Part shown: piece by piece, positions 2,367-64,000 of the stretch
Numbering within the stretch: the stretch's first letter is position 1
Layout: each line of letters opens with the position of its first letter
Assembly (NCBI GenBank): GCA_902771725.1
Contig: CACXXT010000003.1
Span: forward strand, 1-64,000
Direction of reading: 5' to 3'
From: an uncultured Bacteroidales bacterium
GTDB taxonomy: Bacteria > Bacteroidota > Bacteroidia > Bacteroidales > Bacteroidaceae
DNA length: 64,000 nucleotides
Notes under the pieces: generated by a model
Database searches by the model: none
Seen by the model: only the letters and a program-made list of their open reading frames with translations
Told to the model about the DNA's origin: nothing
Made by a program: the position numbers and the translations under genes

Positions 2367-5300
2367 ATGAGAATAATATTCTGCAATCCCAGCTTAGAGA
2401 AAGCCATCCGCACCGCTTTCTGCCTCTGCCTGCTGGCAGGATGGAGCGCGACTCCGGTCATGGCACAGGATGATGTAGAAGAAGCCGACGTCGAGGAAGC
2501 TCCCCGCCGCATCGTCCACAAGAAGCCTGCGAAGCAATACCCCACCCAGTCCGTTGCCGGCGTCATCACTGATGCTGCCACGGGAACTCCCATGGGTGGC
2601 GTTCGCGTCCAGGCACTGCAATTGCCCCAGTATTCAACCCTGACGGAAGAAGACGGAACGTACAAACTCGACGTCCCCACCTTCTGCCACGCACTGGTGA
2701 TAGACGCCCCCGGCTATAACATCCAGCAGCTCGCCATCAAAGGCAGCACGGGCCAGGACGCCAAACTGCTCTCCAGCAAATTCCAGAGCTACTACACCGA
2801 CGGCACTACCATCACCTCGCAGCGCACCGTCCACCTCGACGAAACCAGTTCCCTGAGCGTCGAGACCGATATGCAGCGCCTGCTCGAAGGTGACATCCGT
2901 TCCGTCAACCGCAGCGCCCTGCCTGCTCAGGGTTCCTACTTCACCATCCGTGGTGTGAACTCCATCAATGCCAACGCCCAGCCGCTGTTCATCATCGACG
3001 GCAACATCGTTGACCTGGAGCTCGAGCGCACCAGCCTCCACGAAGGTTTCTACAACAACCTCCTCTCGGGCCTCGATCCTGAGAATATCGAGAGCGTGCA
3101 GGTGCTCAAGAATGCCACGGCACTCTATGGTGCCAAGGGCGCCAACGGTGTGGTCATCATCACCACCAAGCGCGGTCACAGCCAGGCCACGAAGATCAAC
3201 GTCCGCATCTACGGCGGCGTGGAACTTGCTCCCAACAAGCTGAAGGTCATGGGCGAAGACGCCTACCGCCGCTACCTCGGCGACCTCACCAGCTCCATCC
3301 AGGACCTGCGTGACAACGGCACCAGCGGCCTCGACCAGATGGCATTCCTCAGCGACAACCCCCAGAACTTCTACTCGCGCGTCTACAGCGGCAACAACAC
3401 CGACTGGCAGAAGGATATGTACCGCACAGCTCTCACGCAGAACTACAAGGTCAGCGTCGAAGGTGGTGACGATATCGGTATGTACGCCCTCTCCCTGGGC
3501 TACACCAACGGCAAGTCCACCCTCAAGGGCAGCGACTTCAACCGCCTGAACCTCCGCTTCAACACGGACATCAAGATGTTCGAGAAGGTCACTGCAGGAC
3601 TGGACATCGCCTACAACCAGACCAGCTACAACGTGCTGGACAACGGTTGGAGCGAGAACTACGAGATGCAGAACATCGGTTCTACCAACGTCCTCGGTCT
3701 GGTGCAGGCTCCGTTCATCTCGCCCTACGCCTACTACTACGACGAGAACACCCGTCGTCTGGAGCTCTCCAACGACTACGCCGGTAAGTACGCCAGCACC
3801 AACCTCTCCGGCCGCTGGGTCCAAAACCCCTTCGTGTTCCCCCGTTCGATGGGCATCAACGAGAGTCTGCGCAACCCCTACTGGGTCATCGAGAATGGTA
3901 AGGGAAAGAACAAGAACTACGCCGAACTGACGCAGATCAACATCAACTTCTCTCCGAAGTATCAGGTGACGAAGCAGTTCTCCATCAGCGACCGCTTCAA
4001 CTACACCATGAACCGCAACAACGAGAAGTACTTCCTCCCCATCGCAGGTACCACTCCCTACCAACTGACGGACCTCGGCACCATCACCTCCGTGCTGAAG
4101 ACCCAGTTCACCAAGGAGACCACCATCAACAACGACCTCCGCATCGAGTGGGCAAACACCTACGGAGCCCACACCATCGATGCCTTCGCCGGCTGGCGCT
4201 ACAACAACTACAGCTACAGCTACACCTACATGCGTGGTTACAATAATGAGAACGACAAGCTGCCCAATATCTCCAAGAACATGCAGTACGTGAACTACGG
4301 AGGTACCAAGGACAACTGGATCGACATGGCCTACTACATCAACGCCGACTACAACTTCATGAACCGCTACTTCGCCCAGTTCACCGCCTCCGCCCAGGCC
4401 AGCAGCCGCTTCGGCAAGGATACCAAGGACGGCCTCAAGCTGGCCGGCGTCAGCTGGGGTCTCTTCCCCAGCCTGCAGCTCGGCTGGCTCATCAGCAGCG
4501 AGCCCTGGTTCAAGACCGGTCGCGGCATTCAGTACCTGAAGCTGACCGCCGGTGTAGACCAGAGCGGTAACGACGGTATCGACTACTACGCAGCCCGCAC
4601 CTACTGGGCCAGCCAGCAGTACAGCCGCAACACCGTAGGTCTGGTGCTGGAGAACATCGAGAACACCGGCATCCAGTGGGAAACCACCACACGCTGGAAC
4701 ATCGCCCTCGAAGGTTCGTTCCTCAACAACCGTCTGACAGCCGGCATTGACCTCTTCTGGGCAAAGACCGACAACCTCCTCACGATGAAGGATCTCGACT
4801 ACGTAGCCGGTGTGCAGCGGTACTGGACCAACGACGGCCAGCTGAAGAACCGCGGTTTCGAATTCCACGCCAACGCCGCCCTCGTCAATGAGAAGGACTG
4901 GAAGTGGGAAGTAGGAGCCAGCCTGGGTCACTACAACAATAAGATCACCAAGCTGCCCGACACCAACATCATCAGCATGAAGGATGTCGACGGCAACGTC
5001 ACTCGCACCATCGCCGGCTACACCAACAGCATCTTCGGCAAGGACAACGTCCTGACCGCCGTGGGCTACGCCGCAGGCTCCTTCTTCGGATGGGAGACCA
5101 AGGGCGTCTACGCCAACGATGCCGAAGCCAGCACCGCTACCCCCGTCGCCCGCAACGGCAACACCTACATGAAGTACCCCACCGGCATCAAGGACGATCC
5201 CTATCGCAACTTCCAGGCTGGTGACGTCCGCTTCGTGGACCAGAACGCCGACGGCGTCATCGACGATGCAGACCGCGTGGTCATCGGCAACCCCAACCCC

Positions 5301-62584: not shown

Positions 62585-62636
62585 CAAAAAAATTGCGAGA
62601 ACGCCAAGCTCCTGGCCCCCTTTAGCAGCAAATTGA

Positions 62637-63117
62637 AAAGGTATTGGAAAGGTATTGGAAAGTTTTTCCGAAGCTACGGGAAAGTTTGCGAAGTTCTGGA
62701 AAGGTATTGGAAAGTTTTTCCTGAGCGCTGGAAAGATATTGGAAAGTTTTGCCGCAAATCACTCTGAACGGCGGAGGCGCAAAATCTTCTTTGGGCAGCG
62801 GAGGAGGAAACCTTCCCGAAAGGCACATCCTGCACCACGAAGCAAGGGGAAACGCATACTACGCTGACTATCAGCAATCTGCGACACCGCCCCGCCCCAC
62901 GGCGCACCCAATCCACCGCCAATCTGCCACTAATCAGCTGTGGTCACCGCGGTCAGCGCGGTCACCCCTTTTTTGCGTCCCCGAAAAAGTTTCCAACGCC
63001 TACAACTATTTATAACTACTTTATATACAAATAATTATAAATATATATCATCTCTCTTATCTATCTCTTATCTCTTCTTATCTTAAAAACTTTCCAATAC
63101 CTTTCCAATACCTTTCC
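62637..63117. repeat. Inverted GGAAAGGTATT repeat arrays flanking ~420 bp of non-coding DNA
   Basis: The 31 nt at 62637-62667 are a perfect inverted match to 63085-63115; each arm contains two 11-bp units TTGGAAAGGTA. Further units (TGGAAAGGTATTGGAAAG, TGGAAAGATATTGGAAAG) continue to about 62750. Between the arms are a GC-rich piece with TGACCGCGC-type units (62942-62966) and an AT-rich tract. The wider 62400-63667 stretch shows no convincing gene. Confidence 0.7.
63005..63084. other. AT-rich tract with TATCTCT microsatellite
   Basis: About 80 bp of nearly pure A/T including TTATATACAAATAATTATAA followed by repeats of (C)TCTTATCT. It is strikingly AT-rich in a GC-rich window and lies just inside the right repeat arm. 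No gene or clear regulatory box is seen. Confidence 0.5.
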
Positions 63118-63154
63118 AGAAACCTTCCATCGCCCTCCAAACACCCAAGAAACC

Positions 63155-63179: not shown

Positions 63180-63449
63180 AGCCCACCTGGTTTCCGCTTG
63201 CATCCCATGTGCTGGGTAGTCCTCAATTATTCTTTTTCCAATTGTTCGTATTTGATTTCTTTGACGGGGCAGACCACTATCGCCCAATTGACACACCCGA
63301 CAATTTTTTATTGGCATTTGTGTTTGCATGACAATTATATGCCTTTCCTGTTGACACTTTTAGCATCATAATCCAAGAAAAAATCTCATTTAGGAGGAAT
63401 CCCATTGTTTTTTTTTCTTGAAAATCAACTGAGGAAGAAGAATAATGTG

Positions 63450-63457
63450 TATATTTG
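63450..63457 (+). promoter_or_regulatory. -7 box for the structured RNA
   Basis: TATATTTG followed by C matches TAnnTTTG and sits 4 bp before the first hairpin of the RNA. No good -33 box is visible. Confidence 0.55.
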
Positions 63458-63460
63458 CAG

Positions 63461-63641
63461 CGTGTTTCGAAAGAGACACGACTTTATTTGCTCATATTCC
63501 CAGACGAACTGCAACACCGAAAGGAAATAACGGGCAATCACTACATGAAAGGAGCTTGTGCCTAAAGCGCAGGCTAATCCATAATATGTAGTGAGGTTGT
63601 TGCAGACCTGTCTGGGATTATGTGAGAGGTCTGCGCTTTTT
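63461..63641 (+). ncRNA. Structured ~180-nt RNA, 6S-like or a transcription-attenuating leader
   Basis: After a promoter box and a 5' hairpin (63461-63480, GAAA loop) three long-range stems form a rod: 63499-63505 with 63610-63616, 63509-63515 with 63599-63605, and 63539-63546 with 63586-63593. A terminal stem uses 63553-63561 and 63567-63575, and an asymmetric internal bubble (63516-63538 opposite 63594-63598) lies in between. This rod with a central bubble and the length resemble 6S RNA. The 3' end has a terminator, 63602-63609 with 63627-63634 followed by TTTTT. That stem competes with the two outer rod stems, so it could instead be a switch controlling the lipoprotein gene 27 nt downstream, which shows no promoter of its own. 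Confidence 0.5.
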
Positions 63642-63667
63642 GTTGCATACACTTTAAATAGACGTAT

Positions 63668-64000
63668 ATGAAGAAATTGCTCTTATTGTATTTATTATTA
63701 CCCATTTCCTTTTGCGGATGCTCGAATAATTCGAACAACGGTCAAGGGCAAAGTGGGATTCTGACCGAATTGTTTGGGGGCATGAATAAGAAGAGTCCTA
63801 AAGATATTCAGCCAGAAGGTACTTTCGTTTCAGAAGACAACCCTTTATACAAGTCCTTGACGTTTAAGGGTAGGAAAACCGTTGTCATTCAGGATGGCAT
63901 TATAGGAATGGATTTTGTTACAGAGTATGATAAAGATGAAGAGTTCCTGCGTGTTAAGACTGACAAATCAGATTTGCTTTTTGAGATTATTACAGAGGAC
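63668..64000 (+). CDS. Lipoprotein of unknown function, truncated by the window end
   Basis: ATG 63668 opens a frame still open at the window end (111 codons). The signal MKKLLLLYLLLPISFCGC gives a lipobox with Cys at 16 or 18, followed by an Asn/Gly/Gln-rich linker and then a more structured part (TFVSEDNPLYKSLTFKGRKT, VVIQDGIIGMDFVTEYDKDE). No family recognised. Codon use is clearly more AT-rich than the rest of the window (many TTA, TTG, AAT, AAA codons), hinting at different origin. It lies just after the structured RNA. Confidence 0.75.
   Translation, partial: MKKLLLLYLLLPISFCGCSNNSNNGQGQSGILTELFGGMNKKSPKDIQPEGTFVSEDNPLYKSLTFKGRKTVVIQDGIIGMDFVTEYDKDEEFLRVKTDKSDLLFEIITED

Follow-up and report, generated by a model that had tools for sequence, protein, structure and literature searches.

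A covarying structured RNA leader of Bacteroidota as a probable transcription attenuator

The window, by which we mean the whole 64,000-nucleotide stretch of DNA analysed here, contains at positions 63461-63641 a predicted structured RNA that comparison with related loci confirms as real and as one copy of a multi-copy family. This RNA probably acts in cis, as a transcription attenuator within the 5' leader of the gene that follows it (Table 1). The family to which it belongs is large, consists of structured mRNA leaders spread across Bacteroidota and is apparently uncatalogued. In the window, the stretch 63461-63667 folds to -77.4 kcal/mol compared to -47.8 +/- 4.1 kcal/mol in 200 dinucleotide shuffles (z of -7.2), none of which is as low.

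Table 1. Elements of the leader copy in the window, with its promoter and downstream gene
Feature	Position	Strand	Basis
Possible -33 element TTG	63418..63420	+	Position relative to the -7 motif and general consensus
-7 promoter element TATATTTG (TAnnTTTG, Bacteroidota form)	63450..63457	+	Motif also upstream of most copies
P0, 5' hairpin CGTGTTTCGAAAGAGACACG, presumed transcript start	63461..63480	+	Predicted fold; sequence varies between copies
A5, TTTGCTC; can pair with GGGCAA at 63532-63537	63487..63493	+	95 % of cells paired in the genus
H2 5' strand ATTCCCAGAC; first half is X of the alternative 5' hairpin	63496..63505	+	Covariation; X:Y permutation
GAA side of the conserved internal loop, candidate sensor	63506..63508	+	Invariant in the genus; near-invariant in 100 copies
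H3 5' strand CTGCAAC	63509..63515	+	99.5 % paired, two-sided changes in 7/7 pairs
Y and A3 GGAAATAACGGGCAA, partner strand of the 5' hairpin competing with H2	63523..63537	+	X:Y permutation; A5:A3 pairing
H4 5' strand TCACTACAT	63538..63546	+	Rod covariation; own partner better than swapped in 97 %
H5 5' arm GGAGCTTGTGC, apical hairpin, putative antiterminator strand	63551..63561	+	Rod covariation, partner swaps
H5 3' arm GCGCAGGCTAATCCATAAT, also 5' strand of putative terminator T1	63567..63585	+	Covariation, swaps, permutations
H4 3' strand ATGTAGTGA	63586..63594	+	Covariation, partner swaps
H3 3' strand GTTGCAG	63599..63605	+	Covariation, partner swaps
ACCT side of the conserved internal loop; overlaps the terminator stem of the earlier note	63606..63609	+	CC invariant in 29 genus copies
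H2 3' strand GTCTGGGA	63610..63617	+	Covariation
Tail TTATGTGAGAGGTCTGCGC and T-run, 3' strand of T1	63618..63641	+	Covariation, swaps, T excess
Downstream gene, 126-aa signal-peptide protein, probable lipoprotein	63668..64000	+	Stop beyond the window

A BLASTN search of the genus found 47 similar sites in 30 of 139 genomes, a count that, like those that follow, is inflated by near-duplicates (for example L130/L131 and L079/L080) among loci many of which are metagenome-assembled. A covariance model built from 29 copies (R1) has matches in 80 of the same 139 genomes (rumen and gut Prevotellaceae). Among 393 genomes of the order, a model built from 100 copies (R2) finds the RNA in 50. A third model, trained on the divergent clade 2 (R3), finds it in 73 of 295 sampled genomes of the class, about one quarter, and also in a small number from other classes of Bacteroidota. 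When the phylum was searched with the genus-trained model only the window's own genome was returned, which marks the sensitivity limit of that model, as the clade 2 model then found many. Exact pattern matches on named contigs come from rumen or gut Prevotella and Prevotellaceae MAGs. The window's genome alone holds at least eight copies, on contigs C3 (the window), C29, C5, C45, C39, C11, C8 and C19. For the queries tried, phage and plasmid collections contained no similar DNA, and viral contigs yielded nothing with one divergent-form pattern and no relatives of the window's lipoprotein.

An earlier note, made from the letters of the window, had proposed a rod whose two outer stems pair just as it had drawn them, 63499-63505 (CCCAGAC) with 63610-63616 (GTCTGGG) and 63509-63515 (CTGCAAC) with 63599-63605 (GTTGCAG). 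The covariation in relatives that it had named as a check is very strong: pairing holds in 92 % of the 936 cells of the genus alignment, and 29 of the 34 rod pairs have two-sided changes, with a covariation score of 0.499 compared to 0.191 after shuffling and none of 500 shuffles reaching the observed value. As a control, sliding the partner strand by 1 to 3 columns reduces pairing to 30-49 %. Helix H2 is 100 % paired in the genus alignment, with two-sided changes in seven of its eight pairs, and for H2, H3 and H4 the own partner beats a swapped one in 95-97 % of comparisons. Between H2 and H3 lies an internal loop, GAA opposite RCC(U), that is nearly invariant while the helices flanking it vary freely. 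This GAA/RCC loop is likely to be the sensor of the leader.

The same note had described rod and terminator as mutually exclusive folds. Its terminator stem can indeed be drawn, 63602-63609 (GCAGACCT) pairing with 63627-63634 (AGGTCTGC), and 63602-63609 is common to the outer rod. The exclusivity holds and the exact stem does not: taken as a conserved terminator, it is 84 % paired with zero compensatory pairs and scores below shuffles, and in several relatives it cannot form fully. The helix that covaries is a different one, T1, whose 5' strand comes from the 3' arm of the apical hairpin and not from the 3' strand of the outer rod, and in which GCGCAGGC (63567-63574) pairs with GTCTGCGC (63629-63636) and CATAAT (63580-63585) with ATTATG (63617-63622). 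T1 is 93 % paired in the genus alignment with two-sided changes in five pairs, and its mean duplex energy is -23.5 kcal/mol with the own partner compared to -20.5 kcal/mol with swapped partners and -12.2 kcal/mol for the earlier stem. Relative to permuted partners z is about -7 in clade 2 and about -12 class-wide, figures that, like all our helix permutations, ignore the relatedness of copies by common descent. T1 stops exactly at the T-run, where the last 12 nt hold about 7.5 T as a mean over copies compared to 3.2 expected. H5 and T1 share 63567-63585 and both covary, as befits a mutually exclusive antiterminator and terminator. By its predicted pairing, T1 is in direct competition with H5, the apical hairpin; topology sets it against H4 as well, and probably against the outer rod.

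A third helix on the 5' side competes with the rod. The segment X, the first half of the H2 5' strand, can pair either with the H2 3' strand or with the nearby Y, and its own X:Y pairing has an energy of -3.83 compared to -2.61 +/- 0.15 for permuted pairings, a difference of about 8 SD. Adjoining X:Y, the A5:A3 pairing (TTTGCTC:GAGCAAA) is almost always present in the genus (95 % of cells), with no compensatory change within the genus and too little variation for a test. In clade 2 a leader segment PB (AGCGTTA) pairs with the H5 5' arm (TAACGCT), with a z of about -7 in that clade and -11.5 class-wide compared to permuted partners. The predicted 5' competitor helix thus covaries and has two clade-specific forms. 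Both forms would block the rod and free an arm for T1, acting as an anti-antiterminator.

The earlier note had stated that the gene lacks a promoter of its own after the T-run, and the 26 nt from the end of the T-run (63641) to the ATG (63668) contain no promoter motif; TATATTTG is instead found upstream, at 63450-63457. Judging from this -7 element, transcription probably starts near 63461, and a transcript that stops at the T-run would then measure about 180 nt. Across the family, 103 of 122 copies have TAnnTTTG within the 70 nt that precede the core, compared to 2.8 expected, and the P0 region folds to -8.9 kcal/mol compared to -3.4 kcal/mol when shuffled. The -33 consensus to which we refer the upstream TTG is established knowledge of Bacteroidetes promoters. 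The distance from the end of the RNA to the ATG has a median of 73 nt and a 10-90 % range of 59-108 nt. Beyond the T-run lies a further hairpin with an energy of -11.4 for the own partner compared to -8.6 +/- 0.25 for permuted ones, about 11 SD; it covaries, and the read-through RNA is therefore probably under selection. In the window copy, with just 26 nt before the ATG, this hairpin is mostly lost. Taken together, the predicted promoter, the spacing to the ATG and the hairpin after the T-run favour a leader over a free-standing RNA. The attenuator layout suggested earlier for the lipoprotein gene is supported, with a promoter upstream, T1 with its T-run, and then the gene. The lack of a conserved short ORF in the leader speaks against a leader-peptide attenuator: an ATG ORF of at least eight codons is present in 59 of the 122 copies, with starts scattered over two broad zones.

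We propose that transcription would begin near 63461 and that the nascent leader would adopt one of two states. In the read-through state, the long rod H2-H3-H4-H5 would keep the 3' arm of the apical hairpin off the tail. In the terminated state a 5' element would capture a rod strand; in clade 1 this element would pair locally with Y/A3 and take the H2 5' strand, and in clade 2 PB would take the H5 5' arm. The freed 3' arm could then pair with the tail just before the T-run to form T1, so that the transcript would stop as a leader of about 180 nt and the mRNA would not be made. The choice between the folds would fall to a ligand or protein recognised at the GAA/RCC loop. The comparison of copies brings out three competing predicted helices, the sharing of strands between them, the T-run, the promoter and the gene, and we infer that the helices govern termination and that the loop senses something. 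Nearest-neighbour energies place the rod first, or within 1 kcal/mol of the best fold, in 93 of 100 copies; the state with T1 lies about 13 kcal/mol above the rod in the mean and is the best fold in none. Because the rod is more stable by this amount, the equilibrium default would be read-through. Termination would therefore need co-transcriptional (kinetic) trapping by the 5' competitor, or a factor.

To see which genes the leader precedes, we compared the proteins encoded downstream. Neither Pfam nor PADLOC gives a match for the window's own downstream protein. Of 108 downstream proteins in clade 1, 87 look exported or lipoprotein-like, compared to 34 of 126 other ORFs of the same loci (p=8e-17), export being called by a simple rule with a crude hydrophobicity test. 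These proteins belong to several families (BspA-type leucine-rich repeats, Big_2, lipocalin-like, CsgG), and many have no domain. The excess of exported proteins is weaker class-wide (34/66 compared to 30/89, p of 0.03). Restriction-modification and helicase-type defence genes recur downstream of the leader class-wide, although the upstream control genes, a background that is not fully matched, also include some restriction-modification matches. They comprise type III methyltransferases (L209, L215, L239), type IIG enzymes (L235, L237, with the L256 protein beginning alike), HKD+Snf2 proteins (L264 and L265, both in the window's genome) and a methyltransferase-like protein (L262). Other downstream genes encode a sigma factor and response regulators. 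There is no common pathway among the target genes that hints at the signal. Single copies also stand before an apparent adenine methyltransferase gene (L151) and, in the window's genome, before an apparent C5 cytosine methyltransferase gene read from sequence (L185, contig C39) and a gene for a DUF723 protein (L040, contig C45).

Several loci depart from the common arrangement. One carries tandem copies 1.1 kb apart (L170, 1259-1415 and 2384-2540), each before a paralogous exported protein, which suggests that leader and gene were duplicated as a unit. In another (L018, near 1501-1548) an internal deletion fuses the apical GGGGC to CCTGCGC, so that the 3' half of the rod is gone, with an LRR gene behind it. 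A third (L017, around 1460-1495) has an inserted hairpin of about 30 nt right behind the 5' competitor strand and an otherwise intact rod. On contig C53 of the window's genome (L003, 19701-19730, minus strand) the promoter and 5' hairpin are 97 % identical to the window's over 30 nt and the sequence that follows is not rod-like. A FopS small RNA (RF04319, 72.6 bits) lies about 0.75 kb upstream of one leader copy (L055, 682-750, + strand). In the window, the gap upstream of the promoter (62630-63130) holds short repeats GGAAAGGTATTGGAAAG followed by an inverted form CTTTCCAATACCTTTCC.

Two explanations of what the attenuator responds to are sub-cases of the reading we prefer. It may be a riboswitch proper, in which a small metabolite binds directly to the rod and its GAA/RCC loop and thereby decides termination. 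A highly conserved loop set between freely varying helices and coupled to an expression platform is consistent with this, as is the wide distribution in the phylum; the downstream genes, however, are accessory and unrelated (exported proteins, restriction-modification, sigma factor, response regulators) and suggest no metabolite, and the invariant nucleotides are few for an aptamer. A search for known aptamers gave no Rfam match at the gathering threshold and none relevant at a relaxed E-value, and we regard a metabolite sensor as possible, if rather doubtful. Alternatively an RNA-binding protein, a NusG paralogue or the elongating polymerase could read the rod or its loop and favour or block T1. 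The rod carries a small conserved asymmetric loop, the unrelated genes across the genome would form a regulon, and with the rod as the default fold a factor would be required to stop transcription. We hold this as a tentative candidate, short of a preference.

The remaining explanations dispense with attenuation. A stable rod bracketed by promoter and terminator could be a 6S-like RNA or some other small RNA acting in trans, free-standing and about 180 nt long, which lies before the lipoprotein gene by chance. This is improbable given the absence of 6S by Rfam, the many copies in one genome, most at a fixed distance before an ORF, and the covarying hairpin kept beyond the T-run. It is similarly improbable that the leader affects mRNA stability or translation only, its terminator-like helix being non-terminating: the 5' hairpin, the post-terminator hairpin near the start codon and the DUF805 RNA that directly follows the T-run in three loci would suit such a role, yet T1 covaries and ends exactly at the T-run. 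Finally, the many copies per genome, the tandem pair and the internally deleted copy might reflect a dispersed DNA repeat kept alike through gene conversion or mobility, with no RNA function. Diverged copies, however, keep their pairing by compensatory changes, which strongly disfavours a repeat, and promoter and orientation to the gene are fixed; this explanation has very little chance of being right.

Going beyond the attenuator itself, we speculate, with considerable reserve, that the leader is a bistable, Bacteroidota-wide orphan switch that places exported and surface proteins and defence genes (restriction-modification and helicase-type) under the joint control of one common signal, for example envelope stress or phage attack. 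To our knowledge few regulatory leaders are known in Bacteroidota. If our reading is true, the leader would rank with the more widely distributed cis-regulatory RNAs of this phylum, which is central to the ecology of gut and rumen, and it would give a handle on the joint switching of unrelated exported proteins and defence genes. It would be an orphan switch whose candidate sensor loop is sharply defined and whose helices can be tested, and it could serve as a native expression-control part for bacteria without Shine-Dalgarno-based control.

We compared the leader with known RNAs. The window RNA and about 50 related loci have no match in Rfam 15 (4227 families, 6S models included) at gathering or relaxed thresholds. 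6S RNA (RF00013) and 6S-Flavo (RF01685) resemble it in rod shape and in length, and the earlier note had read the rod as 6S-like. That reading is not supported: no covariance model matches, a genome can hold many copies, almost every one of them immediately 5' of a gene and thus cis to it, and a small conserved 3x4 loop stands where 6S has a large open promoter-like bubble. A free-standing 6S gene does not fit either, as copies sit a median of 73 nt before an ORF. A 6S-Flavo search of the window's genome found no match anywhere, and controls likewise had none. The leader is not 6S RNA.

DUF805 RNA (RF03081), a candidate cis-regulatory motif, is like the leader an element of Bacteroidota 5' leaders. 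It is a separate 68-nt element downstream of the attenuator, about 40-50 nt after it, and all covariance-model matches fall after the attenuator and none on it, which rejects DUF805 RNA as the identity of the leader. It lies between the T-run and the gene at L159 (1387-1455, - strand), L172 (2380-2445, +; a second one at 3344-3412) and L225 (597-663, +). In many cases the motif may form the second half of a compound leader.

We found no publication naming the leader; an earlier numbered mention may exist among the supplementary candidates of PMC8040213 and PMC9723704. Flavo-1, Bacteroidales-1 and Bacteroid-trp are candidate structured RNAs of Bacteroidetes (PMC2864571), and 64 structured 5' regions have been described in F. 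psychrophilum (PMC9723704). All are structured RNAs of the same phylum and some are 5' leaders, but the Rfam families of the first three give no match to the leader. Intrinsic-terminator attenuators and riboswitch platforms share with it the order of promoter, long structured leader with strand-sharing antiterminator and terminator, T-run and gene, together with a 5' anti-antiterminator strand. The window leader differs from the known attenuators in having no known aptamer, leader peptide or T-box and in having a long rod as its antiterminator; moreover, the same Bacteroidota leader stands before unrelated exported and defence genes.
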